Of a stretch of 64,000 nt of DNA, positions 44,480 to 60,039 are shown in pieces; within the stretch, counting starts at the first letter, position 1, and each line of letters starts with the position of its first letter. The stretch comes from Chryseobacterium vaccae. Lineage in GTDB: Bacteria > Bacteroidota > Bacteroidia > Flavobacteriales > Weeksellaceae. Position numbers and translations under genes: made by a program. The stretch is from positions 62,001-126,000 of the forward strand of contig NZ_VSWH01000001.1 of NCBI RefSeq assembly GCF_009602705.1, written 5' to 3'. The notes under the pieces were generated by a model. The model ran no database searches. It worked only from the letters and a program-made list of their open reading frames with translations, and was not told the origin of the DNA.

Positions 44480-45619
44480 ATGAATTTATTCAACGTATAT
44501 CCATTATTTAATATAAATCCGGTAAAAGCCCAGGGATCTTTTCTTTGGGATGATAAAGGAGAAAAATATCTTGACTTCTATGGTGGGCATGCTGTAATCT
44601 CGATTGGGCATAACCATCCCCATTATCAAAATAAACTAAAAGACCAGCTGGGGAAAATTTCATTTTATTCCAACTCTGTACAGAATAACTTGCAGAATGA
44701 ACTGGCTGAAAAATTGGGAGAACTTTCAGAGTATGAAAATTATAATTTATTCCTGTGTAATTCAGGCGCTGAAGCTAATGAAAATGCCTTAAAACTGGCC
44801 TCTTTTCATAATGGGAAAGATAAAGTGCTTTATTTTTCAGGATCGTTTCATGGAAGAACTTCTGCTGCGGTTTCAGTAACGGATAATCCAAAAATTGTGG
44901 CTCCGGTCAACTTTTCAGAAAAATTTATCAAATCAGAATGGAATGATATAAAGCAGCTTGAAGAAGCTTTTGAAATACACGGAAATGAAATTTCTTCCGT
45001 GATTATTGAAGGCATTCAGGGAGTAGGAGGAATCATGATTCCAACAGCAGAATTTCTGTTTAAAATTAAAGAGCTGTGTAATAAATACAATGCTGCTCTT
45101 ATTCTTGATGAAGTACAGTCAGGATATGGAAGAAGCGGATACTTCTTTGCCCATCAGGAATTTGGAGTTGAACCGGATATGATTACAACAGCAAAAGGAA
45201 TGGGGAATGGCTTCCCGATTGGAGGAGTGTTGATTCATCCTAAATTTGAAGCAAGTAACGGTCTTTTGGGGACAACATTTGGTGGAAATCATCTGGCCTG
45301 TGCTGCAGCAATTGCTGTTCTGGAGGTCATGAAAGACGAAGATCTTATTAAAAATGCTCAGCAAATAGGTGAGTATATTGAAAATGAAATTAAAGATTTA
45401 CCACATATTCAATCTATCAGGAGGAAAGGTCTGATGATAGGAATAGAGCTCGATAGAGACTGTTCAGAAGTGAGGAAAAACCTGCTGTATGACCATCATA
45501 TTTTTACAGGAAACTCCAATGATAAAAATGTATTGAGGATTCTTCCTGCACTTAATATAAGGAAAGAAGAAACGGATCTCTTCATCAATGCTTTGAAAAT
45601 GGTATTAGAGCAAATTTAA
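44480..45619 (+). CDS. argD: N-acylornithine aminotransferase
   Basis: This 379-residue PLP enzyme of class III aminotransferases converts the N-acylglutamate semialdehyde to N-acylornithine. Conserved blocks are NSGAEANENALKLA, LILDEVQSGYGRSGYFFAH and the PLP lysine K239 in ITTAKGMGNGFPIGG. It starts 55 bases after argC. Confidence 0.95.
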   Translation: MNLFNVYPLFNINPVKAQGSFLWDDKGEKYLDFYGGHAVISIGHNHPHYQNKLKDQLGKISFYSNSVQNNLQNELAEKLGELSEYENYNLFLCNSGAEANENALKLASFHNGKDKVLYFSGSFHGRTSAAVSVTDNPKIVAPVNFSEKFIKSEWNDIKQLEEAFEIHGNEISSVIIEGIQGVGGIMIPTAEFLFKIKELCNKYNAALILDEVQSGYGRSGYFFAHQEFGVEPDMITTAKGMGNGFPIGGVLIHPKFEASNGLLGTTFGGNHLACAAAIAVLEVMKDEDLIKNAQQIGEYIENEIKDLPHIQSIRRKGLMIGIELDRDCSEVRKNLLYDHHIFTGNSNDKNVLRILPALNIRKEETDLFINALKMVLEQI

Positions 45620-45728
45620 ACCACAATAGTTTATATTAAAACTCATGTGCCGGATCAACAATTAATGTGTAAACAAAATCTTTAAAATGGATATTCCATT
45701 TATCCATTAAAAAAACAGAAACTAACAA

Positions 45729-46685
45729 ATGAAAAAATTCACCTCTGTGAGTGATGTAGAAAGCTTACAGGATATTATAAAAAAAGCTTTAGAAATTAAA
45801 GAAAATCCTCTTTCGGAAACTGAAAAAGGAAAAGGAAAAACAATTGGATTGGTATTTTTGAACTCAAGTTTGAGAACCCGTTTAAGCAGCCAGATAGCGG
45901 CTCAGAATTTAGGACTAAATGTATTGACTTTAAACGCAGCCCAGGAAGCCTGGAATCTTGAATTTGCCGATGGAGCCGTAATGAACGGAGATACGGTAGA
46001 ACATATCAAAGATGCTATTGAGGTTTTAAATCAATATTGTGACATCATCGCGGTACGTTGTTTTGCGGGAATGAAAGTTAAGGAAGATGATGTTAACGAA
46101 AGTATTTTGAGTCAGTTTGAGCAGCACGCAAAAGTACCCGTTATTTCTCTGGAATCAGCAACCCGTCACCCTTTACAAAGCCTTGCAGATTGTATTACAA
46201 TTACTGAAAGCTGGAAAGAAGAACGCAAACCAAAAGTGGTTCTCACCTGGGCACCTCACATCAAACCGATTGCCCACGCAGTAGGAAACTCTTTTGCAGA
46301 ATGGATGCAGGAAATGGATGTGGATTTTGTGATCACCAATCCGGAAGGTTATGATTTGGATAAAAATTTTACAAAAGATGTAAAAGTAATTCATGATCAG
46401 AACGAAGCTCTGAAAGATGCAGACTTTATTTATGTGAAAAACTGGTCGTCTTTTGAAGATTATGCAGCAATGCCTGAGGTAAAAGAAAACTGGATGCTGA
46501 CCAATGAAAAATTGGAAAATACCAACGATGCAAAGGTAATGCATTGCCTTCCCGTCCGCAGAAATGTAGAACTCAGCGACGAGGTCATGGATGGTAAAAA
46601 CTCCATTATCTATCAACAGGCAAAAAACCGGATATTCTCTGCTCAGACCATCTTCAGCGAAATGTTGGACAACATAAAATCATAA
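45729..46685 (+). CDS. argF': N-succinylornithine carbamoyltransferase
   Basis: The 318-residue transcarbamylase carbamoylates N-acylornithine, using carbamoyl phosphate from CarAB. Phosphate-binding motif SSLRTR (46-51), TRHPLQSLAD and the C-terminal HCLPVRRN are seen. The substrate-determining residue in the loop NGDTVEHI is Val90. In acetylornithine transcarbamylase this site is Glu, and in the Bacteroides fragilis succinylornithine enzyme it is Pro. Published mutagenesis shows that small residues at this site favour the succinyl substrate, so N-succinylornithine is predicted here. Confidence 0.9.
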   Translation: MKKFTSVSDVESLQDIIKKALEIKENPLSETEKGKGKTIGLVFLNSSLRTRLSSQIAAQNLGLNVLTLNAAQEAWNLEFADGAVMNGDTVEHIKDAIEVLNQYCDIIAVRCFAGMKVKEDDVNESILSQFEQHAKVPVISLESATRHPLQSLADCITITESWKEERKPKVVLTWAPHIKPIAHAVGNSFAEWMQEMDVDFVITNPEGYDLDKNFTKDVKVIHDQNEALKDADFIYVKNWSSFEDYAAMPEVKENWMLTNEKLENTNDAKVMHCLPVRRNVELSDEVMDGKNSIIYQQAKNRIFSAQTIFSEMLDNIKS

Positions 46686-46693
46686 TATCCAAA

Positions 46694-46938
46694 AGAGTTC
46701 CAAAAGAATGATTCAACAAAGGACAGGATAGAATCCTGTCAAATTGAAATATAAAATCCGGATTAAAGTCCCGAAGGGACGATTCAACAAAGAATAGGAT
46801 GCAATCCTATTAAACAAAACAAAGATAACATACCCAAAAAGAAAGAATCCCAACGGGATGATTTACCCAAGAATAGGATGCAATCCTATTAAATAAAATA
46901 TAAAATCATTTAACAAAGAATAGGGTAAAATCCTATTA
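46694..46938 (+). repeat. REP-like elements between argF' and argB (R2c-R2f)
   Basis: Three full copies (46694-46741, 46766-46811, 46842-46890) and one half copy (about 46908-46938) lie between the genes. Each full copy has a first hairpin (GAGTTCCAAAAGAATG, AGTCCCGAAGGGACG, AATCCCAACGGGATG) and a second hairpin of the type AATAGGATGCAATCCTATT. The first arm differs from copy to copy but mostly keeps its pairing. Confidence 0.75.
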
Positions 46939-46981
46939 AATAAAATTATCAAACAAATATCAAAAAACACCACAATCTGTA

Positions 46982-47773
46982 ATGAACAAGCTGTACATCA
47001 TAAAAATAGGAGGCGCTCTGATTGACGATGAAAAATTGTTAAATCATTTCCTGGAGCAGTTTTCCGAAATTAAAGAAAAGAAAATTCTTGTTCATGGAGG
47101 AGGTAAGCTGGCGACAACGCTGGCAGATAAGCTTGGTGTAGAACAGAAGATGGTTAATGGAAGAAGGATTACAGATAAAGAGACGTTGGATATTGTAACG
47201 ATGGTGTATGCGGGCGGAATCAATAAGAATATTGTTGAAAAATTGCAGCAGAAAAAATGTAACGCCATAGGGTTTTCGGGGGCAGACGGAAACTTAATTA
47301 AAGCCAAAAAAAGAGAACATCCTGAAATTGATTTCGGATATGTTGGAGATATTAATAAGAAGAGTGTGAACAGGAAGCTGGTTTCAAAACTAATTAAGCT
47401 TGATCTTGTTCCTGTATTTTCTGCGATTACCCATGATAAAAAAGGAAATCTTTTCAATACCAATGCAGATACCATTGCTTCTGTAATGGCGCAGGCTTTA
47501 TCGGAGAAATATGAAGTTGAATTGTTGTATTGTTTTGATAAAGAAGGGGTTTTGGAAGATGTTAATAATCCGGATTCCGTTATCAGAAATGTTTCTGAGG
47601 AGAAGTTTTTGACATTGAAAGAACAGGGGAAACTTCATAAAGGAATTCTTCCCAAACTGGAAAATGCTTTGGGAGCTATAAAAAACAATGTAAATAAAGT
47701 ATTTCTGATCAAAGAAACCGAACTTAAAAATCATATAGAAAATCATCATGCAGGAACTGAAATCTGTTTATAA
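46982..47773 (+). CDS. argB: N-acylglutamate kinase
   Basis: The 263-residue amino-acid kinase phosphorylates N-acylglutamate. The glycine-rich IKIGGALIDDE and VHGGGK motifs are at the N-terminus, and FNTNADTIASVMAQAL in the ATP-binding half. It ends inside the start of argE (26-base overlap). Confidence 0.95.
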   Translation: MNKLYIIKIGGALIDDEKLLNHFLEQFSEIKEKKILVHGGGKLATTLADKLGVEQKMVNGRRITDKETLDIVTMVYAGGINKNIVEKLQQKKCNAIGFSGADGNLIKAKKREHPEIDFGYVGDINKKSVNRKLVSKLIKLDLVPVFSAITHDKKGNLFNTNADTIASVMAQALSEKYEVELLYCFDKEGVLEDVNNPDSVIRNVSEEKFLTLKEQGKLHKGILPKLENALGAIKNNVNKVFLIKETELKNHIENHHAGTEICL

Positions 47774-48830
47774 TAAAGAAGAATTATTGAGTAATGCTAT
47801 AGGGCTGCTTAAAAAACTGATTGAAATTCCTTCATTCAGTAAAGATGAATTCAATACATCGGTAGAAATTGAAAACTTCTTCAGAAAACATCAGATCCCT
47901 ACAAAACGTTTTAAAAACAATATCTGGGCGGTGAATAAGAATTTTGATGTATTCAAACCATCTGTTCTGCTCAATACGCATCATGATACGGTAAAACCCA
48001 ACAAAGCATATGCGCTGGACCCGTTTCTGCCAATAGAAAAAGACGGAAAGCTGTATGGACTGGGGAGCAATGATGCGGGGGCCTCTTTGGTTTCTATGGC
48101 TCAGGTTTTTTTACATTTTTATGAAAAAGAAGATTTAAAATATAATTTAGTTATTGCTTTGACAGCAGAGGAGGAGATTTCAGGATTTGATGGAATTGAA
48201 GCCCTGTTTCCGCAGCTTCCCAATGTGGAATTCGCTATTGTAGGTGAACCCACGCAGATGAATCTGGCGATCGCGGAAAAAGGACTTTTGGTTATTGACG
48301 GGGAAATGAAAGGAACTCCTTCTCATGCTGCTCATCCAAACGATGATAATTCCATTGTAAAATGCATGGAAGATCTTCAGCATATCTTAAACTTCAGGTT
48401 TCCTAAAATTTCAGACTATCTGGGTGAAGTAAAAATAACGTTGTCAGGAATTCATGCCGGCGTACAGCATAACGTGGTTCCGGAATCATGTTCTTTCACG
48501 CTGGATGTAAGGGGTACCGATGAATATTCCAATAAAGAGGCATTTGAAATCATTCAGTCACAGATGAAGTCAGAACTCAGGGCAAGGTCATTCAGGCTTA
48601 ACTCGTCAAAGATTGAAATGGATCACCCGTTTGTACAGGCCGGATTGGAAATAGGAAGGACCACGTACGGTTCACCTACCTCTTCGGATCAGGCGATCAT
48701 TCCTTGTACATCGGTAAAAATAGGACCTGGAGACAGCAGGCGCTCCCATACAGCAGATGAGTACATCCATATAGGAGAAATAGAAGAAGGAATTGAAATC
48801 TATATCCGGATTCTGGAAAAAGTTTTATAA
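47748..48830 (+). CDS. argE: M20-family N-acylornithine deacylase
   Basis: The 360-residue metallohydrolase removes the acyl group from the pathway intermediates. M20 metal ligands are visible in LNTHHDTVKP, GLGSNDAGASLVS, LTAEEEISG and VGEPT. In Bacteroidota this step probably acts on N-succinyl or N-acetyl citrulline rather than ornithine, because carbamoylation precedes it. Coupled to argB by a 26-base overlap. Confidence 0.9.
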   Translation: MQELKSVYNKEELLSNAIGLLKKLIEIPSFSKDEFNTSVEIENFFRKHQIPTKRFKNNIWAVNKNFDVFKPSVLLNTHHDTVKPNKAYALDPFLPIEKDGKLYGLGSNDAGASLVSMAQVFLHFYEKEDLKYNLVIALTAEEEISGFDGIEALFPQLPNVEFAIVGEPTQMNLAIAEKGLLVIDGEMKGTPSHAAHPNDDNSIVKCMEDLQHILNFRFPKISDYLGEVKITLSGIHAGVQHNVVPESCSFTLDVRGTDEYSNKEAFEIIQSQMKSELRARSFRLNSSKIEMDHPFVQAGLEIGRTTYGSPTSSDQAIIPCTSVKIGPGDSRRSHTADEYIHIGEIEEGIEIYIRILEKVL

Positions 48831-49057
48831 AAAAGAAGAAGTGATAGTTTAGGTTTAAAGCTTCTCATCAACAATACATGTTTTAGCTACGCTCGGCAGG
48901 AAATTAAAGTGGAGTTTTTAATAAGGATTTATGCAAAAAGAAAAATTAAAAACAAAAGCTTTTGAATGTGGAGATGTTTTTTTAATAGTTTTTTTACTGG
49001 TAACAGTATAGTTAAGGATTCCTGTCGGGCTGCTGAAACAATATTAAATAATTATCT

Positions 49058-50362
49058 ATGAAAAAAATATGGCAAAAGGATAACCTTGCTACCAATATAT
49101 TAGTCAACAATTTTACAGTCGGAAAAGATCTTGACTTTGATGAACGTCTGGCAAAATACGACGTTAAAGGTTCAATGGCACATTGTAAAATGCTGGCAGA
49201 AACCGGAATTATCTCCGGTGAAGAATCAAAACAGATGCTTTCCGTTCTGGAAACCATTCTGAATGATATTGAGAACAATTATTTTGAGATCGATAAACAA
49301 GCTGAAGATATTCATTCTCAGATCGAAGCGATACTCATTGAAAAATTAGGCGATACCGGAAAGAAGATCCATACCGCAAGATCACGTAATGATCAGGTTT
49401 TGACAGACATCAAACTCTATCTTTTAGACGAGATTCGTGAGATTACCGTATTAACAGATGAGTTTTTTCAGATCCTTACGGGACTTGCAGATCAGCATAA
49501 AAATGTATTGCTTCCCGGATACACACATTTGCAGATTGCAATGCCGTCTTCTTTCGGGTTGTGGTTCGGGGCTTATGCTGAAGCGTTGCTGGATGATGTT
49601 GAACTGCTGTTTTCAGTGAAAAATATCATCAACAAAAATCCTTTGGGTTCAGCAGCAGGATATGGCTCTTCATTTCCGATCGACCGTGAAAGCACTACCT
49701 ATAATCTGGGATTTCAGTCAATGAATTATAATTCAGTATATGCCCAGATGACGCGTGGAAAATCTGAGAAATTACTGGCCATGTCCATGGCAGCCTTAGC
49801 TGGAACGCTTTCGAAATTTGCGTATGATGTATGTCTGTATCTTAATCAGAACTTCAATTTCATCAGCTTTCCGAAAGAATTTACCACAGGAAGCAGCATT
49901 ATGCCGCATAAAAAAAATCCGGACATTTTTGAGCTGGTTCGTGCCCGTTGCAACAGAATCCAGTCGCTTCCGAATGAACTGATTATACTTACCAACAATC
50001 TTCCGTCGGGCTACCACAGAGATGTACAGCTTACAAAAGAGATTCTTTTTCCAGCTATTGATTCATTAAAAGAATGTCTGGAAATTTTAAATTATACCCT
50101 TCCGAATATTCAGGTAAAAGATGGAATTCTGGAAGACGAAAAATATAAATATCTTTTCAGTGTAGAGAAAATCAATGAAGAAGTGAAAAACGGAAGTTCG
50201 TTCCGGGATGCTTACATCAAAGTAGGACAGGAGATTGAAAACAATGAATTTGATTTTGAAGCAGGAGAGTTGAATCATACCCACCAGGGAAGTATCGGAA
50301 ATCTCAGCCTCGATAAAATAGAATACCAGTTCAATAAGCTGAAAAATAAATTATTGGGTTGA
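49058..50362 (+). CDS. argH: Argininosuccinate lyase
   Basis: The 434-residue enzyme splits argininosuccinate to arginine and fumarate. The superfamily signature GSSIMPHKKNPD is present, with HTARSRNDQVLTD in the N-terminal half. It is separated from argE by 228 bases in which no promoter is clear, so it may be the last gene of the arg operon. Confidence 0.95.
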   Translation: MKKIWQKDNLATNILVNNFTVGKDLDFDERLAKYDVKGSMAHCKMLAETGIISGEESKQMLSVLETILNDIENNYFEIDKQAEDIHSQIEAILIEKLGDTGKKIHTARSRNDQVLTDIKLYLLDEIREITVLTDEFFQILTGLADQHKNVLLPGYTHLQIAMPSSFGLWFGAYAEALLDDVELLFSVKNIINKNPLGSAAGYGSSFPIDRESTTYNLGFQSMNYNSVYAQMTRGKSEKLLAMSMAALAGTLSKFAYDVCLYLNQNFNFISFPKEFTTGSSIMPHKKNPDIFELVRARCNRIQSLPNELIILTNNLPSGYHRDVQLTKEILFPAIDSLKECLEILNYTLPNIQVKDGILEDEKYKYLFSVEKINEEVKNGSSFRDAYIKVGQEIENNEFDFEAGELNHTHQGSIGNLSLDKIEYQFNKLKNKLLG

Positions 50363-50380
50363 TCTAAGACAACATTTGTT

Positions 50381-50479
50381 AAAGATCTTATCAAAGCTTC
50401 GATTTCGCTCAGTTGATACTTCTGATTACGAACGACGTTCTGCAGGGCTGTCATGCTGAGCGGAATCGAAGCATCTTTA
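50381..50479. repeat. Inverted repeat of the GTCATGCTGAGCGGAATCGAAGC type (R3)
   Basis: A left arm (AAAGCTTCGATTTCGCTCAG, 50394-50412) and a right arm (CTGAGCGGAATCGAAGCATC, 50455-50474) are near-perfect inverted copies. The sequence resembles a very widespread Bacteroidota intergenic repeat. It could serve as a processing or termination site after argH. The rest of the 328-bp gap 50363-50690 holds only a short AAAGT...ACTTT hairpin. Confidence 0.6.
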
Positions 50480-50690
50480 AAATTGTGAGAATAGATTTGA
50501 ATTAAATAAATGTTGTAGATCTGTAAAAAGGATAAGAATGGAAATTAGATTGAGTGCAGGCGAACTGAGATAAAAACAAAAGGTATAAAGTTCAACAAAG
50601 TAAAAAAACTTTCTTTATTTTAAAAACGCTCAGCAATATTTCTCCTTGTGTATTCTTACGATTATTAATAAATTATCAAATGAAGACAAA

Positions 50691-51152
50691 CTATTCCAGA
50701 TCAATCTTAAACTTTGTAGATTTTTTCACCTCGTGAAGCACAATAGAGCTGTGGTATTGTCCGATATTGGGGATATTCGAAATAACATTAACTGCGAAAT
50801 CATTATATGAGTTAATATCCTTAGCGATAATTTTAAGCATATAATCGTACTCGCCGGAAAGACTGATGATCTCCTGTACTTCGTCATGTTTGCCAATGTT
50901 CTTCTCAAAAGTTTCCAGAACTTTCTGGGATTGTTCCTTTAAACGGACATTACAATACACCACAATATTAAGCCCCAGCTTTTCACGGTTTAAAAGACCT
51001 ACATATTTCTCAATGATGCCCTGCTTCTCCAATTGTTTGATTCGTTCATAAGTAGGAGTGAAGGTAAGACCGATCCTTTCTGATATTTCCTTAACAGATA
51101 AAGTAGAGTCTTCCTGGATGATGCTGAGAATCATTTTGTCTTTTAAATCCAT
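50691..51152 (-). CDS. Lrp/AsnC-family transcriptional regulator
   Basis: The 153-residue protein has an N-terminal HTH (SVKEISERIGLTFTPTYERI, about 18-37) and a C-terminal RAM/ligand domain (EVQEIISLSGEYDYMLKI). Family members sense amino acids and form octamers. I chose ATG 51152 (MDLKDKMILSI). A frame extending further upstream lacks similarity to the family, and a -7 box lies between the two. It is divergent from pyrB and next to arginine genes, so arginine or pyrimidine control is plausible. Confidence 0.88.
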   Translation of the reverse strand: MDLKDKMILSIIQEDSTLSVKEISERIGLTFTPTYERIKQLEKQGIIEKYVGLLNREKLGLNIVVYCNVRLKEQSQKVLETFEKNIGKHDEVQEIISLSGEYDYMLKIIAKDINSYNDFAVNVISNIPNIGQYHSSIVLHEVKKSTKFKIDLE

Positions 51153-51172
51153 AAAATAAATTTGAGTTGAAA

Positions 51173-51180
51173 CAAAAATA
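51173..51180 (-). promoter_or_regulatory. -7 promoter element of the Lrp-type gene
   Basis: The minus strand reads TATTTTTG, 20 bases from the chosen start codon. It supports ATG 51152 as the translation start. Confidence 0.4.
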
Positions 51181-51238
51181 GTATTTATAAATGAAAATAA
51201 GGAAAGAACCACCGGTTTAATTTTTTTGGAAAAATGGT

Positions 51239-51269
51239 TTTGTAGATTCGTGAACTTTTTATATCTTTG
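51239..51269 (+). promoter_or_regulatory. Consensus promoter of the pyrB leader
   Basis: -33 TTTG (51239-51242), 19-base spacer, -7 TATCTTTG (51262-51269). This is an exact match to the Bacteroidota consensus TTTG-N19-TAnnTTTG and the best promoter in the window. Six bases lie between it and the leader-peptide ATG. Confidence 0.8.
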
Positions 51270-51275
51270 CACCTA

Positions 51276-51347
51276 ATGAATAAAAAAGTATTTATATCAT
51301 TAGAATTACCGGGCGAGAGCGCCCTTTACGATATTTATTGTTATTAA
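51276..51347 (+). CDS. pyr leader peptide, 23 codons (candidate)
   Basis: A short open frame starts at the predicted transcription start (ATG 51276), begins MNKKVFISL and ends YDIYCY before a TAA at 51345-51347. It encodes a GGGCG-AGAG-CGCCC hairpin within codons 12-17 (51311-51324), followed by a U-rich stretch. The stop codon overlaps the base of the intrinsic terminator stem that precedes pyrB. The arrangement matches a ribosome-coupled attenuator; three tyrosine codons near the end are the only notable codon bias. Confidence 0.55.
   Translation: MNKKVFISLELPGESALYDIYCY
51311..51324 (+). promoter_or_regulatory. GC-rich pause hairpin in the pyr leader
   Basis: GGGCG pairs with CGCCC around an AGAG loop. 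It is followed by 24 bases with 13 U residues, where low UTP would slow RNA polymerase. Confidence 0.5.
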
Positions 51348-51372
51348 GCGAAGATTTGTCTTCGCTTTTTTT
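51346..51372 (+). terminator. Attenuator (intrinsic terminator) before pyrB
   Basis: A perfect 9-bp stem AAGCGAAGA/TCTTCGCTT with TTTG loop is followed by seven Ts (51366-51372). It lies 20 bases before the pyrB ATG, so polymerase must read through it to transcribe pyrB. Confidence 0.9.
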
Positions 51373-51392
51373 ATGTTCAAAAATTAAGAAAT

Positions 51393-52283
51393 ATGTTTAC
51401 GATTACAGAACTTAGCACCGAGAGAATCAACAGTATACTGGCCGAAGCAATGGCTTTTGCCAATGGAAAAACTGCTAAAATTGAAGGAGAAGTTTTTTGC
51501 TCAAATCTTTTCTTTGAAGACAGTACAAGAACAAAGACAAGCTTTGATATGGCAGAAAGAAAACTGGGACTGCAGGTAGTTCCCTTTGATGCTTCCAACA
51601 GTTCTGTAAATAAAGGGGAAAGTCTTTATGATACCGTAAAGACTATAGAAAGTATCGGAGTGAATCTGGTGGTGATCAGAGATAAAAAAGACCGTTATTT
51701 TGACGAACTGAAAAACATCAGCATTCCGGTAATCAATGGAGGAGACGGAACAGGAAACCATCCTTCGCAGTGTATGCTGGATCTGCTGACGATTTATCAG
51801 GAATTCGGAAAGTTTGAAGGACTGAAAGTAGGGATCGTAGGGGATGTAAAGCACAGTCGTGTAGCCAACTCCAATGCCGAAGCCTTAAGAAGATTAGGCG
51901 CAAAAGTATACTTCTCAGGACCGGAACAATGGTTTGATGAAGGAGCCTTAATCAACGGAACCTATCTGGCGGTAGATGAGCTGATTACTGAAGTAGATGT
52001 TGTCATGCTTTTAAGAATACAGCACGAAAGACACGATGCCAAAATGAGTTTCTCCGCTTCCGAATATCACAGAAGATACGGCTTAACCAAAGAAAGAGAA
52101 AAATCAATGAAAGATAGTGCAATCATCATGCATCCGGCACCCATCAACAGAGGTGTTGAAATAGATACCGATCTTGTGGAATGTAAACGTTCAAGAATCT
52201 TCAGACAGATGCAAAACGGAGTTTTTGCAAGAATGGCAATCCTAAAAGAAGCTCTGGAGCAAAAAGGATATACATTTAAATAA
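51393..52283 (+). CDS. pyrB: Aspartate carbamoyltransferase catalytic subunit
   Basis: The 296-residue enzyme condenses aspartate with carbamoyl phosphate in pyrimidine synthesis. The carbamoyl-phosphate motif STRTKTS is at 44-50, and [11 protein letters not shown] is in the C-terminal half. It is somewhat shorter than the E. coli chain (311). No regulatory chain pyrI is adjacent. A leader with an attenuator precedes it. Confidence 0.95.
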
Positions 52284-52290
52284 AAGAAAG

Positions 52291-52371
52291 AGCCCCAAAG
52301 GGGCGACTTATCATAGCCATGGGTGAAACCCTTGGAAAATAATAAGAATAAGCCCCGTAGGGGCGGCCTGT
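52291..52371 (+). repeat. REP-like elements between pyrB and carA (R2g)
   Basis: AGCCCCAAAGGGGCG and, after a short spacer, CCATGGGTGAAACCCTTGG form two hairpins (52291-52335) in the same architecture as the arg-operon repeats. A second single hairpin AGCCCCGTAGGGGC lies at 52351-52364. Confidence 0.65.
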
Positions 52372-52401
52372 TAATAAAAAAAGAAAATCTAAATAAAAAA
52401 A

Positions 52402-53475
52402 ATGAAGAAAAAATTAATACTGGAGTCCGGTGAAGTGTTTCATGGAGAAGGTTTCGGAGCAGATTTGGAAACTGCCGGAGAAGTAGTTTTCAATACCGGA
52501 ATGACAGGGTATCAGGAACTGATTTCTGACCCGTCTTACTGCGGTCAGATTGTTTGTATGACCTATCCGCTTATCGGGAATTATGGTATTAACCGTGATG
52601 ATTATGAGAGTATTGAGCCGGCTATTAAAGGACTTATCGTAAAAGAACTTTGTGATCTTCCTTCTAATTTCCGTACTCAGATTACTTTAGATGAATTATT
52701 TAAGAAGAAAAACCTTTCAGGAATTTCAGGAATCGACACAAGAAGGTTAACCAGAATTCTTCGTAATCATGGAGTAGTAAAAGGAAAAATTGTGAATGCT
52801 GATGCAGATGAAAATGCAGTAGCTTCAGAATTGAAATCAACTACTTTCCCAATCAATCAGGTGGAAGAGGTTTCTACAAAAACACCTTATGCCAATCCAA
52901 ACAGAGGTTTCAAAGTTGTTTTGGTGGATTTCGGAGCAAAACTGGGAATTATCAGAGAATTATCTCAGAGAAACTGTGATATTATCGTAGTTTCCCAGGA
53001 TACTACTGCTGAAGAGATCCTGTTGATGAACCCTGACGGAATCATGCTTTCAAATGGTCCTGGTGACCCGGAAGATGTACCACATGCTCTGGATATGATC
53101 CGCGGATTATTAGGAAAAGTTCCCATCTTCGGAATCTGTTTAGGACACCAGCTGATCGGATTGGCCTGCGGAGCAAAAACTTTCAAACTGAAATTCGGAC
53201 ACAGAGGAGGAAACCACCCGGTACTGGATTTAGAGAAAAACAAAGTAGCAATTACTTCCCAGAACCATGGCTATGCAGTAGACCAGGAAAGTTTGAAAGG
53301 AACAGACCTTATCGAAACGCACATCGCATTGAACGACAGAACCAACGAAGGGCTAAGACACAAGATCCACCCATGCTTCTCAGTTCAGTATCACCCTGAA
53401 GCAAGCCCGGGGCCGGAAGATGCGAATTACCTGTTTGATGAGTTCATTCAAATGATGGAGGACTTTAAAAAGTAA
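52402..53475 (+). CDS. carA: Carbamoyl-phosphate synthase small subunit
   Basis: The 357-residue glutaminase subunit supplies ammonia to CarB. The glutamine-amidotransferase nucleophile Cys246 is in FGICLGHQLIG, and the catalytic His/Glu motif is YHPEASPGPED at the end. It lies 118 bases after pyrB with only repeats between, so the same attenuated transcript probably covers it. Confidence 0.96.
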   Translation: MKKKLILESGEVFHGEGFGADLETAGEVVFNTGMTGYQELISDPSYCGQIVCMTYPLIGNYGINRDDYESIEPAIKGLIVKELCDLPSNFRTQITLDELFKKKNLSGISGIDTRRLTRILRNHGVVKGKIVNADADENAVASELKSTTFPINQVEEVSTKTPYANPNRGFKVVLVDFGAKLGIIRELSQRNCDIIVVSQDTTAEEILLMNPDGIMLSNGPGDPEDVPHALDMIRGLLGKVPIFGICLGHQLIGLACGAKTFKLKFGHRGGNHPVLDLEKNKVAITSQNHGYAVDQESLKGTDLIETHIALNDRTNEGLRHKIHPCFSVQYHPEASPGPEDANYLFDEFIQMMEDFKK

Positions 53476-53479
53476 GAAA

Positions 53480-53921
53480 GACTTCAGATATTAGACATCA
53501 GATAACAGACTCTATCATGCATAATTTTGAAAAATTAGTTTTTTGGCAAAAATTAATTGAACTTGCAAAACAGGTTTATATCATTTGTTCAGAATTACCT
53601 AAAGATGAAAAGTTTGGTTTGATTTCTCAAATAAAAAGGTCAGTAATTTCAATTCCATCAAATATTGCGGAAGGAGCAGGAAGAAATAACGATCGGGAAT
53701 TTTATCATTTTCTTGGTATTGCAAATGCTTCCTCTTTTGAATTGCAGACACAGTTAATCTTAACTAGAGAATTAAATTTACTTGATGTAGAAAAAATCAA
53801 CAGTCTAATATCAAATCTGAATGAAATTCAAAGAATGATTTATACATTCAAATCTAATCTAAAAAAGTAAACACAACGCTGGAAAGTCTGAAATTTGACA
53901 TCTGGCATCTCATATCTAAAT
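53480..53921. repeat. Imperfect inverted repeats flanking the four-helix-bundle gene
   Basis: The left flank (53480-53511) contains CAGATATTAGACATCAGATA and CAGACT. The reverse complement of the right flank (53885-53921) reads AGATATGAGATGCCAGATGT and CAGACTT. The two share the ATAT-AGA-CAGAT-CAGACT core. Together they bracket the small gene as a unit. Confidence 0.55.
53517..53870 (+). CDS. Four-helix-bundle protein (23S rRNA intervening-sequence-type)
   Basis: The 117-residue protein has the S23/IVP-like four-helix signature: FEKLVFWQKLIELAKQVY, PKDEKFGLISQIKRSVISIP, SNIAEGAGRNNDREFYHFL and a C-terminal helix pair. Such proteins were first found encoded within rRNA intervening sequences, but many Bacteroidota carry them elsewhere. 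Here it splits carA from carB. Its composition is more A/T-rich than its neighbours (many AAA, ATT codons), which fits recent insertion. The function is unknown. Confidence 0.85.
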   Translation: MHNFEKLVFWQKLIELAKQVYIICSELPKDEKFGLISQIKRSVISIPSNIAEGAGRNNDREFYHFLGIANASSFELQTQLILTRELNLLDVEKINSLISNLNEIQRMIYTFKSNLKK

Positions 53922-53927
53922 TAGAAA

Positions 53928-56900
53928 ATGGCAAAACGTACAGATATAAAAACAATTTTAGTAATCGGTTCAGGACCTATCATTATTGGTCAGGCAGCAG
54001 AATTTGATTACGCAGGAACGCAGGCTTGTTTGTCTTTGAAAGAAGAAGGTTACAAAGTGATCCTGATCAATTCAAACCCTGCAACAATCATGACAGATGT
54101 GGAAATCGCTGATAAAGTATATATCGAGCCGATTTCATTACAGTTTGTAAGCCACATTATCAGAAAAGAGCGTCCTGATGCACTTTTACCGACACTTGGA
54201 GGACAGACGGGTCTTAATATGGCGGTAGAGCTGGAAAAGTCCGGAATCCTTGAAGAATGTAAAGTAGAAGTACTGGGAACAAAGCTTTCAGCAATCAACA
54301 GAGCAGAAGATAGAGACCTTTTCCGTGAGCTGATGAGAGAACTGAATGAGCCCGTTCCGGAATCTGACATCGTTAACACGGTAGAAGGTGCTTTAGGATT
54401 CGCTGACAATATCGGTTATCCTGTAATCGTTCGTCCGGCCTTCACAATGGGAGGAACCGGAGGAGGAATTGCTTCCAACGAAGTAGAATTGAAAGAGATT
54501 GCTGAATTAGGACTGAAGTACAGTCCTGTTACCCAGTGTCTTATTGAAAAATCAATTGCAGGTTTCAAAGAAATAGAATACGAAGTAATGCGTGATGCGA
54601 ACGACAATGCAATTGTAGTTTGTAACATGGAAAATATTGATCCGGTCGGAGTTCACACGGGAGATTCAATCGTAGTAGCACCTTCCCAGACCCTTTCAGA
54701 CAGAGAGTATCAGTTATTGAGAAATGCTTCCTTAAAGATCATCAGAGCATTGGGAATTGAAGGAGGATGTAACGTGCAGCTGGCTTTAGATCCGCATTCA
54801 TTCGACTATTATATCATTGAGGTTAACCCTAGAGTTTCCCGTTCATCAGCATTAGCAAGTAAGGCAACAGGGTATCCGATTGCAAAGATTGCGGCGAAAA
54901 TCGCGGTAGGATTAACGCTGGATGAGATCATGAACCCGGTAACAGGAAAAACATACGCTTGTTTCGAGCCTGCTCTTGACTATGTGGTAACAAAATTCCC
55001 AAGATTCCCATTCGATAAATTCGAAACGGCGGACAGAAGACTTTCTACTCAGATGAAAGCAACAGGAGAAGTAATGGCTATCGGAAGAAACTTCGAAGAA
55101 TCTTTACAGAAAGCGATCCGTTCCTTAGAAACAGGAATCAAGCATTTAGGATTAAAAACGAAGCAGGCAGAGGCTCTTACAGCTGAAGAAATTGAAAGAA
55201 GAATCAGAGTATGCGACGATGAGAGATTATTCATCATCGGAGATGCTTTAAGAAGAGGATATGACTGGGAACAGATTGTAGAATGGAGTAAAATCGATAA
55301 GTTCTTCATCTGGAAACTGAAAAAACTGGTTGACTTCGAAAAAGTGATCGCAGACAATAAATTTGATAAAGAAACTTTAATTCAGGCTAAAAAACTAGGA
55401 TTTGCCGATATCAATATTGCAGTTCTTTGGGAAGTAAAAGAGCGTGAGGTTTTCAACTTCAGAAAAGAAAACGGAGTGATGCCGGTTTACAAAATGGTAG
55501 ACACCTGTGCCGCTGAATTTGAAAGTGAAACCCCTTATTTCTACGGAACTTACGAAGAAGAAAACGAAAGCGTTGTTTCAGATAAAGAGAAGATCATTGT
55601 ACTGGGTTCAGGACCTATCAGAATCGGGCAGGGAGTTGAATTCGACTATGCAACCGTTCACTCGGTTTGGGCCATCAAAGAAATGGGTTATGAAGCAATC
55701 ATCATCAATAACAATCCTGAAACGGTTTCCACAGACTTCTCAATCTCTGATAAACTATACTTCGAGCCGCTTACAGAAGAAGATGTAATGAATATCATCG
55801 ATCTTGAAAAGCCTAAAGGAGTAGTAGTACAGTTCGGAGGACAGACTGCGATTAACCTTGCCGATAAACTGGCCTCTCATGGAGTACAGATCCTGGGAAC
55901 TTCTCTGGAAGACCTTGACAGAGCTGAAAACAGAGATAAATTTGAAAAGGCACTTCAGGAAATGGGAATTCCTCAGCCTTTAGGAAAAACATCAACTTCA
56001 AAAGAAGAAGCGATTAAAATTGCGAATGAAATCGGTTATCCGGTATTAGTACGTCCAAGCTACGTTCTTGGAGGTAGAGCAATGGAGATCGTATACGCAG
56101 AAGCAGAGCTGGCACACTATATGGAGCATGCAGTAGATGCAAGCCCTGAACATCCTGTCCTTGTAGACAAATACATGGTAGGTAAAGAGATTGAAGTAGA
56201 TGCAATCTGTGACGGGGAAACTGTTGTGATTCCCGGAATTATGGAGCACATCGAAAGAGCAGGAGTTCACTCCGGAGACTCTATCGCTGTATATCCGCCG
56301 CAGAATATTTCACAAAGCGAAGTTGAAACACTGGTAGATTATACAAAAAGACTGGCAAAAGGACTGAACGTAATCGGATTAATGAATATCCAGTATGTTC
56401 TTTTCGAAGGAAACGTTTATGTGATCGAAGTAAACCCAAGATCTTCAAGAACCGTTCCTTTCCTTTCCAAAATTACAGAAGTTCCGATGGCTAATCTGGC
56501 AACAAAAGCCATTCTTGGACAGAAATTAACAGATCTGGGCTACAAAGACGGCCTGGTTCCAAATAAAGAAGGAGTATTTGTAAAAGTTCCGGTATTCTCT
56601 TTCTCAAAACTGACGAAGGTTGACATCTCTTTAGGCCCTGAAATGAAGTCTACAGGAGAAGTAATGGGGAAAGATACGACCTTGGAAAAAGCCCTGTACA
56701 AAGGACTTATCGCAGCAGGAAGAAAAGTTCCGATGCATGGTTCAATCCTTTTCACAGTAGCAGATAAACATAAGCAGGAAGCAGCTGACCTTGCGGCAAG
56801 ATTCCATGAAGTAGGTTTCAGAATCTGGGCTACAGAAGGAACCGCGAAATTCTTTGAAGAAAAAGGAATTCCTTGTAAAATAGGATACAAAATCGGAGAA

Positions 56901-57110
56901 GAAGATGTGAACCTGATCGACCTGATCCAGAAAGGAAAAGTTCAGTATGTAGTGAACACAACCACCAAAGGAAAACAGGCAGAAAGAGACGGATTCCAGA
57001 TCAGAAGAATGAGCGTGGAAAACGGAGTACCTTGTCTGACTTCAATGGATACAGTAGAAGCCATCTTAAAAGTAATTGAAAGCATGAGTTTCAAAATGGA
57101 AACCATGTAA
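53928..57110 (+). CDS. carB: Carbamoyl-phosphate synthase large subunit
   Basis: The 1060-residue enzyme makes carbamoyl phosphate from bicarbonate, ATP and ammonia from CarA. Two homologous ATP-grasp halves begin at [19 protein letters not shown] and [19 protein letters not shown] (about residue 555). The C-terminal MGS-like regulatory domain (from about 930, [19 protein letters not shown]) is the usual site of UMP and ornithine control. Confidence 0.97.
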
Positions 57111-57132
57111 TCAGAACTTAAAATAATATTGT

Positions 57133-57168
57133 AAACCTCATAGATTTTTATAATCTGTGAGGTTTTTT
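57133..57168 (+). terminator. Intrinsic terminator after carB
   Basis: AAACCTCATAGATT and AATCTGTGAGGTTT form a long stem with a short A/T loop and a T-run behind it. It closes the pyrB-carA-carB unit. Confidence 0.88.
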
Positions 57169-57241
57169 TATTAAATTCGGATGCAAATATTTTTGAATAA
57201 AAGAGTATCAGGTAATTTTACAAAACTTTAAATCAGAATCA

Positions 57242-57688
57242 ATGCATCTTCTAAAGAAATTTAAAATCATCTACGGAGTTATTTTCATCTTTATTTTGTT
57301 GGGGTGCTCAATACCAACAGATTTTTATATCCAGAATCTGACACAGACCAACAAAGTTGTAAAAATCAATTATGCAAGAAAGATAACCAATGCATTGAAT
57401 AATGATGGTTATGGACATTTCAGTTTCAATTATCAGGAAGACATTGTAAAACCCAGAGTTTTTAAAAGGAATAAAAACCTGCGATCCTTGGAAAAAATAA
57501 GTATTACTGATTCTTTGATCACCATTGAAATTCCCCCGCATTCAACGGTAAGGATCGAAAAAACACATAATTATTACTGGGTGAGAGGCATAAGGAGTGT
57601 TGAAATTGATGGGCAGAATTTTGACATTAAAGAGCTAAGAGAAAAGTCAGAAGAAATTAAAGATGATTATGTTTATAAAATTCAATAA
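57242..57688 (+). CDS. Small lipoprotein of unknown function
   Basis: The 148-residue product has a lipoprotein signal (IFIFILLGC, Cys22) and a beta-rich body without recognisable domain. Basic and aromatic residues alternate (for example HNYYWVRGIRSVEIDGQ). It is followed by 184 bases with no feature I can name, then another lipoprotein gene. Confidence 0.6.
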   Translation: MHLLKKFKIIYGVIFIFILLGCSIPTDFYIQNLTQTNKVVKINYARKITNALNNDGYGHFSFNYQEDIVKPRVFKRNKNLRSLEKISITDSLITIEIPPHSTVRIEKTHNYYWVRGIRSVEIDGQNFDIKELREKSEEIKDDYVYKIQ

Positions 57689-57872
57689 AAGGCTTTCAGT
57701 AGATTTTCTTAAAACATTACTTTCCAAAAATAAATTACACTCAATTTCAATGCTGCCCGGTACAAACGGCAAACGGCTTGGAAATATAAACGGGACAAAC
57801 TATAAAGAAACGCTTTCCCCGATTAAAACTAATTAAAAATTAATAAAAATATTCCATGAAAAAAATTGTATT

Positions 57873-58562
57873 ATGCTCGTATGCTTATTTTCCTGTAAGA
57901 AAGATCCGGAAATTTCTCAAAGTATGAGCGAAGAAGCAGAAACCTCTTCTCCTATAGAAAATCTGAATATTCAGACCAATTCTTTTATTGAAATTGACAG
58001 TACAGGTATTTTAATGTTTCCATTACAGATGGGGGAAAACCCAAGAGAAAACGGAAAGTACTCTTATAAGGAAATGCCGGATAATGGATATTGGAACATC
58101 ATCTTTCTTAATTCAAACACAAATGAATATCATCTGCTTACAGAAAAGAAAACTCTGATACTGGATTATGACTACAAATATGGTACGGAAGAAGGAATTA
58201 ACGTTTCCAAAAAGACCAATCATATTTTTTATGCCATAAGAAACCTTGATTTTAATAAGGATAAATTGTTAAATGAAAAAGACCCCGCTTATTTATTTGT
58301 TTCAGACCGGTTCGGGAAAAATTTCAGACCCATTTCACCGGTGAATTGTAATGTGAACAGCTGGAAATATATTCAGTCTTCCAATAAAGTGATCATGACT
58401 GTAACAAAAGACAGCAATAATAAACTGTTTGATGATAAAGATGAAGTTATGACTTTCGAAATTGTATTAGATCAATCCGAAACGCCTAAAGAAGTCTTTC
58501 AGCAGGATATTAAAAATAAACTCAAAAAGCTGTATGACAGAGACTGGAAAAGGATAAAATAA
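57873..58562 (+). CDS. Lipoprotein of unknown function with a possible frameshift at its start
   Basis: The frame open to the stop at 58562 starts at ATG 57873 with MLVCLFSCKKD, giving 229 residues. This leaves a lipobox (LFSC) but almost no signal peptide before it. An ATG at 57856 followed by seven As (ATGAAAAAAATT) begins a typical signal start MKKIVL in another frame, one base off. One extra base would join them (MKK...MLVCLFSCKKD), so either a sequencing or replication slip in the A-run, or phase variation, is likely. The mature part has an acidic Asp-rich motif (NLDFNKDKLLNEKDPAYLF) and no known domain. Confidence 0.6.
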   Translation: MLVCLFSCKKDPEISQSMSEEAETSSPIENLNIQTNSFIEIDSTGILMFPLQMGENPRENGKYSYKEMPDNGYWNIIFLNSNTNEYHLLTEKKTLILDYDYKYGTEEGINVSKKTNHIFYAIRNLDFNKDKLLNEKDPAYLFVSDRFGKNFRPISPVNCNVNSWKYIQSSNKVIMTVTKDSNNKLFDDKDEVMTFEIVLDQSETPKEVFQQDIKNKLKKLYDRDWKRIK

Positions 58563-58591
58563 TAGGTTTGTTTTATATTTCTTCAAGCTCA

Positions 58592-58758
58592 CAGCAAAGG
58601 TTTATGAGTAATTCTGCTTTACTTTAAGTAGGCAAAGTTATGCGACTTCGTCGCTGATGAAGCGGGATGTTTATCCATACGCTTCGACGAATCAACAAAG
58701 TTGATTCTAACCTTTGCTCCCTTAAAATCAGCAGCTTCAAAAATGAAGACCTTTGCGT
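58592..58758. repeat. Nested-palindrome intergenic element (R6)
   Basis: Small perfect hairpins GCGAC-TTC-GTCGC (58642-58654) and GAATCAAC-AAA-GTTGATTC (58689-58707) lie between GGCAAAG and CCTTTGC arms, with a further outer pair. The same design is seen in R4 and R5. It occupies the 313-bp gap 58563-58875. Confidence 0.5.
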
Positions 58759-58875
58759 GAGAAAAACGCATCATAAGAACATCTTCTTTTTAATCAAAAA
58801 ATACTCAAAGAATATGATTAAGATAAAAATTTGAATGATATACAAAAAATCAATTTCAGAAATTTAAACAGGCTG

Positions 58876-60039
58876 TTAATCTCCCAACTGTATTTCTATT
58901 TGCTGCTGCTTTACATAACTGCTGGGTGACATTTGGGTAATTTTCCTAAAATTCCGGTTAAAGCTGGTTTTGGAATTAAATCCGCATTCAAATGCCAGTG
59001 CCAGTAAAGTATACTGTCTGCTTTCCGGTTGTAGCAGCAACTCTTTAAAAGCTTCTACCCGGAGCGTATTGATATATTCATAAAAGTTTTTCCCCTCCTT
59101 TGAATTAATAACCTGTGAAAGAGTACCGGGAAGAATATTCAGCATTTTAGCCAGATCTCCTAGAGTGAGTTCAGGATCTTTATAACATTCCTGTTCTTTC
59201 ATTAATGCAGCCAGTTCTGCTTGAATTTCACCTGCTTTGGTCTCTTCCAGTTTTGTCTTTTCGTATTTTATCCGGTCGGCCGTTTTTGTGATAGTCTCAG
59301 GTTCTTCCGGCTGACTGTCCGGTTCAAGTACAATTGGAAGAAGAACTTCATGCATTGATGCCGGATTAGAAAAAATGCCCGCCTGGCGGATGCCAAAATA
59401 ACCGATAAAGAAAATAAACAATGCAACAGCAATATACACAGCCTGGGCCGATTGGATAAATATCACAACAATCCATATAATTCCCATCCCTGAAATAAGG
59501 TACCGCATCCAGTTAAGCGTGATTTTATCAGTATTGGAGAACTGTCCCACAATATTGTGCCGGTGTCTGTAGAGGAGGCGGAGTGATAAGGTCACATATA
59601 CAACCCCTGAAATCATAATGCATCCCACAATTCCCTTAAACAAGGGAGTAAAAGCAGATAGTGCAGAGGTATCCAATCGTGCTGCCGGAATGACAAATGC
59701 CAATAAAAGAGATGCCAATAGTGTCGGAATAAAATGAAGTAAATACCGGAAACCATAATAGCGCTGCTGGCCGCTTAGAAACAAAATATAGAGATATAAA
59801 AAAGGACCATGCAGAAAGGGGAGTGGTAATTCCCATCCGACCAGTGCCGGAATTTTATAGATAAACCCTGAAGCATAGCCTGCAATGAGTATCAGATGAA
59901 TCAAAGCAAACAAAAACCAGGTACTCAAAATCTTATCTGCCGTAGTTTTCTTCTGCTTACTGATCAGCATGATAAAAAGAAACAGTGATATTGAAATCCC
60001 GCCTATGTAAATAAGTTGCCAGCCTTCCGCCATGGTCAT
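58876..60039 (-). CDS. Membrane-anchored AraC-family regulator
   Basis: The 387-residue protein has about seven membrane helices in its first 225 residues, a charged linker (about 235-285, EPEETITKTADRIKYEK), and a C-terminal AraC-type double HTH (LTLGDLAKMLNILPGTLSQVI and ALAFECGFNSKTSFNRNFRKI). Such 7TM-AraC proteins are common in Bacteroidota and sense signals at the membrane. Either ATG 60039 or 60033 may be the start. It is last in a minus-strand group with an outer-membrane protein and an esterase. Confidence 0.88.
   Translation of the reverse strand: MTMAEGWQLIYIGGISISLFLFIMLISKQKKTTADKILSTWFLFALIHLILIAGYASGFIYKIPALVGWELPLPFLHGPFLYLYILFLSGQQRYYGFRYLLHFIPTLLASLLLAFVIPAARLDTSALSAFTPLFKGIVGCIMISGVVYVTLSLRLLYRHRHNIVGQFSNTDKITLNWMRYLISGMGIIWIVVIFIQSAQAVYIAVALFIFFIGYFGIRQAGIFSNPASMHEVLLPIVLEPDSQPEEPETITKTADRIKYEKTKLEETKAGEIQAELAALMKEQECYKDPELTLGDLAKMLNILPGTLSQVINSKEGKNFYEYINTLRVEAFKELLLQPESRQYTLLALAFECGFNSKTSFNRNFRKITQMSPSSYVKQQQIEIQLGD

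Follow-up and report, generated by a model that had tools for sequence, protein, structure and literature searches.

The DNA analysed here, called the window throughout, is a 64,000-nucleotide stretch of a Chryseobacterium vaccae contig (NZ_VSWH01000001.1, positions 62,001 to 126,000), and the locus in question is the short region ahead of pyrB, the aspartate carbamoyltransferase (ATCase) gene, with carA and carB downstream. The features of the locus are the following:

51239..51269, + strand: Bacteroidetes-type promoter, TTTG-N19-TATCTTTG, read from the sequence (TTTG at 51239-51242, a 19-nt spacer, TATCTTTG at 51262-51269)
51274..51276, + strand: predicted start of transcription, at the leader ATG or 1-2 nt ahead of it, placed from flavobacterial box positions
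51276..51347, + strand: leader ORF of 23 codons and a TAA stop, MNKKVFISLELPGESALYDIYCY, read from the sequence (ATG 51276-51278, TAA 51345-51347)
51273..51303, + strand: possible 5' hairpin pairing the leader AUG, (C)TAATGA-ATAAA with TTTAT-a-TCATTA(G), from the minimum free energy (MFE) fold
51311..51324, + strand: putative pause hairpin GGGCG-AGAG-CGCCC (5 bp), from the sequence, a cross-genus helix test and covariation
51325..51345, + strand: U-rich stretch, 13 U in 21 nt, putative UTP-dependent pause region (composition read from the sequence, pausing conjectured)
51346..51372, + strand: intrinsic terminator, a 9-bp stem with a loop of 4 (51346-51367) and a T run, from the sequence and covariation
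51393..52283, + strand: pyrB, aspartate carbamoyltransferase (best solved-structure match 3r7d, E 1e-101)
52402..53475, + strand: carA, probably served by the same promoter as pyrB and placed after it in 80 of 80 named loci
53928..57110, + strand: carB, co-control uncertain, separated from carA by 452 nt and a 117-aa ORF

The names carA and carB are assumed, for carA from a motif and the gene order. The TAA (51345-51347) shares the first two bases of the terminator stem, and the seven T at 51366-51372 begin with two that lie within that stem. Direct reading of the sequence bears out the parts that the original prediction had described before pyrB, namely a promoter, an ATG 6 bases on, a 23-codon ORF, a hairpin, a U-rich end and an overlap of the stop with a 9-bp terminator; it had made no mention of the possible hairpin at the leader AUG (51273-51303), which is present in the MFE fold. 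The 100-nt leader has a better fold than any of its 200 dinucleotide-shuffled versions (z -3.2). The interval 45000-60000 contains 15 terminator-like sites where shuffles give 11.1 (sd 3.3), and the leader ORF stays open in 17% of shuffles, so that both are unremarkable alone; an Rfam scan of the same interval gave no family at the gathering score. The significance of the element comes from its relatives.

The genus set comprises the window and 80 loci from a scan of the contigs of named genomes, 79 of them labelled Chryseobacterium and one a Weeksellaceae MAG, with PyrB proteins that are 90-98% identical; Chryseobacterium is placed in the Weeksellaceae (PMC7660247, excerpt). The promoter box, an ATG exactly 6 nt on, the ORF and the terminator are present in 81 of 81 leaders. 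In the family sample of 120 genomes the PyrB query matches 94, of which 82 lie outside the genus, and the upstream DNA was read for 58 of these 82 (59 loci); the design is found in 56 of the 59, which give 53 distinct leaders from 24 other genera. The frame and the terminator of the original prediction are thus kept in relatives, in all 81 genus leaders and in these 53, and the feature before pyrB is almost certainly real.

The three loci without the design (L214, L215 and L216) all belong to g17, where pyrB follows another, longer upstream region. Their pyrB has 53-55% identity to the query. Approximately 320 nt ahead of it lies TATCTTTGTAGGATTTTAAAA or a similar sequence that resembles a promoter, and pyrB is also preceded by a terminator, AAAACATCTTA..TAAGATGTTTTTTT, but by no short leader; this may be another attenuator. 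Genome G184 carries pyrB twice (L136 and L210, with 75% and 64% identity to the query), and both copies have a leader of their own. For g10, g19, g21, g28 and g29 there is no PyrB match among the genomes listed, apart from weak ones in g21 (E 5e-5 to 8e-4), and in some of these genera the identity of carB to that of the window is only about 45%.

Searched with covariance model R1, the genome of the window (G000) gave one strong site, the window's own, and three weak ones (E 0.7-9.8). The family gave 77 sites (E at or below 1.1e-5) in 76 of the 120 genomes, and 77 of 77 lie, by their coordinates, directly ahead of a pyrB match, a figure to be read with the fact that many of these sites trained R1. 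Among the 198 genomes of the phylum sample, under stricter filters that lose weak matches, no match outside the family was better than E 0.0049. The weak matches in f35/g125 (best E 0.0049) look like gene ends. Weaker matches were read by eye at 27 places, of which 26 look like the ends of genes with normal terminators or lack an obvious gene downstream; the remaining one lies ahead of carB in genome G222. This locus, L255 (about 444-551 on the reverse strand of G222:C1:643077-643727), has a second leader, built like the one before pyrB and placed immediately ahead of carB, with a promoter, an ATG after 6 nt and a 31-codon ORF that runs through the terminator. The same pattern was found upstream of carB in 1 of 20 regions (that of G222) and upstream of pyrD in 0 of 20 (one region being 433 nt).

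The position of the transcription start can be predicted from the promoter. The -7 box is TATCTTTG in 79 of the 81 genus leaders, TACCTTTG in one and TAATTTTG in one. As TAnnTTTG ends with its G at -5 in F. johnsoniae (PMC6847099, excerpt) and the promoter box covers -12 to -5 in F. psychrophilum (PMC9723704, excerpt), +1 is predicted at 51274, leaving a 5' UTR of 1-2 nt. The original prediction had let transcription begin at the leader ATG itself, which agrees with a predicted start 1-2 nt before it and with the distance from box to ATG, which is 6 nt in 129 of the 134 leaders (81 of the genus and 53 distinct others, the latter having 6 nt in 48, 5 in 4 and 7 in 1). Messengers with such short 5' UTRs are uncommon in the phylum: according to excerpts of two transcriptome papers, leaderless messengers make up 5.5% in F. 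psychrophilum (PMC9723704), and in B. thetaiotaomicron about 3.7% of 5' UTRs are shorter than 10 nt (PMC7366714).

In 23 of the 25 genus representatives the leader frame continues without a stop until no more than 9 nt remain before the terminator, an outcome seen in 15-49% of shuffles for each; over these 23 genera log10 p sums to -13.4 against shuffles if the genera are taken as independent, which they are not fully. The stop overlaps the foot of the terminator stem in 72 of 81 genus leaders and 33 of 53 others. A further 2 of 81 (L002 and L073) and 10 of 53 have an ORF that enters or crosses the stem, which brings the leaders with a stop at the foot or past it to 74 of 81 and 43 of 53. The stop lies 4 nt ahead of the stem in 7 of the 81 and 4-7 nt ahead in 8 of the 53, which also include one leader with the stop 11 nt (L198) and one with the stop 16 nt (L187) ahead of the terminator. 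TAA, TAG and TGA are all present as stops at the stem foot within the genus. A ribosome translating the leader should be able to reach the stem, since the stop sits at or in its foot in most leaders. Within the genus, codon-level conservation of the 23-codon frame, a mark of translation considered in the original prediction, does not appear: the nucleotides themselves are held, with third positions variable in 6 of 20 leader codons, compared with 55 of 59 in pyrB codons 2-60. The genus leader is therefore conserved in its nucleotides and not only in its codons, more than a plain pyrBI device needs, and, as the genus test gives no codon pattern, it is the other genera that supply the evidence for translation. 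A translated-leader attenuator before pyrB is, on this evidence, very probable.

The leader peptides are divergent between genera (e.g. METLHPTIQVQDVKFDGLPAIKIFIF, MNLVQNLATTTIGKFADNNNIFYI and MCRLENIFNLKTEGQGPSQRYCYY), and no single-codon run common to different genera was found when they were compared by eye. Several genera partly share an FPLDD-like start followed by an NIYF-like pattern. Such sharing would suit an arrest peptide, or a leader ribosome that senses arginine, carbamoyl phosphate or UMP and blocks the terminator by stalling at the end of the ORF; carAB lies downstream, and upstream ORFs resemble arginine genes. Against this explanation, the peptide is very different in g2, g9, g11, g22 and g23, and the end of the ORF shifts between leaders, which arrest peptides rarely tolerate. 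We regard it as unlikely.

The hairpin in the middle of the leader and the sequence after it also recur across genera. A hairpin of at least 4 bp is present in 25 of 25 representatives and ends 16-28 nt ahead of the terminator in 23 of them; the best helix of g13, at 45 nt from the terminator, and that of g16, at 41 nt, are probably non-homologous. The MFE z-score of this middle region is weak for each genus (mean -1.0, below -1.64 in 5 of 25), and a direct helix test was for that reason used instead; it gave a combined p of 7.8e-7, with 6 of 25 singly below 0.05 and 23 different best stems among the 25. The T fraction over the 25 genera is 0.54 in the last 20 nt ahead of the terminator, compared with 0.29 earlier. 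Covariation was assessed on alignment A1, which holds 54 chosen leaders. In A1, 92.6% of cells are paired, compared with 84.6% in shuffles, 65 cells show changes on both sides, compared with 19.5, and the covariation score is 0.280, compared with 0.146 (levels that 0 of 500 shuffles reached in each case); both sides have changed in 9 of 14 pairs (1 of 500 shuffles). Structures slid along the alignment have 29-55% of cells paired and scores of at most 0.102, in a comparison that favours the consensus-derived structure. The terminator helix has 99.0% of its cells paired, with five of its nine pairs changed on both sides and four invariant, and the middle hairpin has 86.4% paired in its inner three pairs and 72.9% in its outer two. 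The compensatory changes that the original prediction had expected in the terminator among relatives were accordingly found, and the hairpin has them too.

Similarly to the middle hairpin, the possible 5' hairpin can be followed beyond the genus. A helix covering the whole ATG is stronger than in shuffles over the 25 genera (combined p 9.5e-5, 6 of 25 below 0.05), in a test that admitted bases just 5' of the predicted start, and it is absent in 2 of the 25. Position -2 covaries with the presumed partner: of 99 distinct leaders in which -2 is T or C, the 69 with T have CATTA in 63 cases, CATTG in 1 and neither in 5, and the 30 with C have CATTG in 10, CATTA in 1 and neither in 19, the base that differs often being the third base of a Leu codon (TTA/TTG); at the genus level the counts are 5, 1, 1 and 7 (Fisher p 0.026). 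Within the genus, with stems taken from the MFE fold of the window leader, variable columns in the 5' and middle stems compared with the rest number 1 of 26 and 9 of 34 (p 0.033) when the minor base is required in at least two sequences, and 3 of 26 and 12 of 34 (p 0.041) when any variation counts. For the 5' hairpin alone the corresponding figures are 1 of 16 and 9 of 44 (p 0.26), and 1 of 16 and 14 of 44 (p 0.05). An earlier comparison, with stems drawn after the variable columns had been seen, gave 0 of 26 and 10 of 34 (p 0.003) and is superseded by the MFE-fold stems with p 0.033. The leader RNA is constrained beyond its peptide, and a hairpin at the AUG is likely to exist in several genera, though not universally, with a presumptive function.

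The same tight hold on nucleotides in the genus, where 6 of 20 third positions vary in the leader and 55 of 59 in the start of pyrB, would suit a protein or small molecule that binds the 5' or the middle hairpin, the ORF being incidental. The 23 different best middle stems speak against such a binder, as do the retention of the open ORF and of the register between stop and terminator, the lack of an Rfam family at the gathering score in 45000-60000 and the failure to find PyrR in G000; this explanation is about as improbable as an arrest peptide. A leader peptide and a terminator would likewise fit attenuation of the trp or his type, with an antiterminator, and clues to such control have been described before amino-acid operons of F. 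psychrophilum (PMC9723704, excerpt). The 5' arm of the terminator pairs, however, less strongly with the leader than within the terminator in 25 of 25 genera, and its pairing with the leader does not exceed shuffles overall (combined p 0.36, with g7 and g24 singly below 0.05), which argues against switching of the trp type, and the genera share no regulatory codon run; amino-acid attenuation is thus very unlikely.

The surroundings of pyrB bear on the extent of control and on one further explanation. In the 80 named loci the gap between pyrB and carA is 30-842 nt, with a TAnnTTTG box in 1 of 80; carA is likely to be under the same control, and for carB this is uncertain. The gap in the window contains G+C-rich palindromes that might act as terminators; such palindromes (GCCCC..GGGGC) lie at 52291-52364 and 46767-46811, and the segments 52291-52335 and 46767-46811 fall just below the Rfam cut-off for Acido-Lenti-1. 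The 117-aa ORF between carA and carB (53517-53870) presumably resembles four-helix-bundle proteins. On the minus strand, at 50691-51152 and divergent from pyrB, stands a gene for a putative Lrp/AsnC-like regulator. Although tblastn finds this gene divergent from pyrB in 78 of 80 named loci, control by the promoter or by the Lrp-like regulator, with a terminator that merely lowers basal expression, explains neither the ORF, the hairpins and the register nor their occurrence in 24 other genera, and is the least credible of the explanations considered.

We therefore return to the attenuator with a translated leader. It is probably a pyrBI-like, ribosome-coupled device tuned by UTP, and control by pyrimidine supply is likely. 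It is filed as pyrBI-like and not as a proven member of that class, since the UTP response is a prediction and the ORF usually ends at the terminator and not beyond it. For its working we infer UTP dependence, pausing, an action of the ribosome and a role of the 5' hairpin, in the following way. RNA polymerase would start 1-2 nt ahead of the leader AUG. With ample UTP it would cover the approximately 100 transcribed bases before the leader ribosome comes, the terminator would fold and transcription would stop before pyrB. With scarce UTP the polymerase would pause in the U-rich stretch past the hairpin and the leader ribosome would catch up; once at the stop codon, at or beyond the foot of the terminator, this ribosome would cover the 5' arm and allow readthrough into pyrB and probably carA. 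A 5' hairpin around the AUG may hold back the first ribosome, which would sharpen the difference between the two states. A pause set by UTP is suggested by the identity of the gene, the U-rich stretch and the precedent in E. coli. According to an excerpt of PMC4824070, a stop 5 bp ahead of an E. coli terminator cuts its efficiency from about 90% to less than 10%, termination is complete only when more than 27 nt separate stop and terminator, and suppression is less frequent for terminators within 100 bp of the start of a coding region, where translation is not yet coupled. The leader fits these data, by which the polymerase should win without a pause and the ribosome with one.

The history of the element appears to be linked to that of PyrR. 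A PyrR query from a sister family found nothing in G000 and, among the 120 family genomes, one partial match of 62 residues (E 5.7e-4), the genome concerned being 56% complete. Of the 148 genomes in the order sample 101 gave a match, in a few cases a weak one, and none of these 101 belongs to f1. In 19 of the best 20 PyrR matches PyrR lies less than 300 nt from pyrB of the same genome, and in G393 at 977 nt; in three sister-family loci that were translated, the ORF before pyrB is PyrR. PyrB of the window is 38-45% identical to PyrB of the sister families, and its closest solved structures are 3r7d, 2at2 and 6pnz (E 1e-101 to 2.2e-97), presumably Bacillus and Staphylococcus ATCases, compared with E 6.5e-38 for 1q95, presumably that of E. 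coli. The simplest reading is that the attenuator replaced PyrR. An origin independent of the enterobacterial leader, i.e. convergence, is plausible since the element was seen in this family alone among the samples searched. A search of titles and the starts of abstracts, mostly of papers outside subscription journals, found no description of a pyrB leader or attenuator in this family.

If the pyrBI-like reading is true, the element represents a second, probably independent, invention of nucleotide sensing through ribosome-polymerase coupling. It would imply tight coupling of transcription and translation in the Bacteroidetes, whose mRNAs are described as lacking Shine-Dalgarno sequences (PMC6847099, excerpt), and would offer a compact assay for such coupling; leaderless initiation may itself be a timed step. 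With an attenuator present, PyrR not found and PyrB different from that of the sister families, it would also exemplify regulator turnover. A more far-reaching proposal, which we consider possible but doubtful, is that of a family-wide nucleotide gauge in place of PyrR, made of a leaderless cistron whose AUG lies in a co-transcriptional 5' hairpin, where the timing of the first ribosome against UTP-dependent pausing would decide the expression of pyrB; it would be a convergent, minimal (about 100 nt) form of pyrBI with an initiation clock added.

Known attenuators offer several points of comparison. The pyrBI operon of E. coli and Salmonella has a pyrL leader of 44 codons, a hairpin, a U-rich region and a terminator, with the position of the ribosome deciding termination, and in E. 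coli the leader ORF passes through the terminator. An excerpt of PMC4824070 describes that terminator as lying within a 135-bp leader gene and as unrepressed at normal UTP. The present element is similar in having a leader ORF, a hairpin, a U-rich region and a terminator ahead of an ATCase gene, without an antiterminator beyond chance. It differs in its 23 codons, predicted leaderless start, possible AUG hairpin and Bacteroidetes promoter class, in a stop that lies mostly at the foot of the terminator (into or through it in only 2 of 81 and 10 of 53 leaders), and in a PyrB nearer to 3r7d (E 1e-101) than to 1q95 (E 6.5e-38). With PyrR attenuation it shares a control placed ahead of pyrimidine genes, and pyrR adjoins pyrB in the sister families; it differs in its translated leader, in the lack of a PyrR element among the Rfam matches and in that PyrR was not found in G000. 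The leader attenuators of flavobacterial amino-acid operons, of which there are clues in F. psychrophilum (PMC9723704, excerpt), likewise combine a short ORF with a structured 5' region, whereas here there is no antiterminator beyond chance and no regulatory codon run, and the gene downstream is a pyrimidine gene. Compared with known attenuators, what is new here is a predicted 5' UTR of 1-2 nt with a fixed spacing from promoter to ATG and, possibly, a 5' hairpin that captures the leader AUG.
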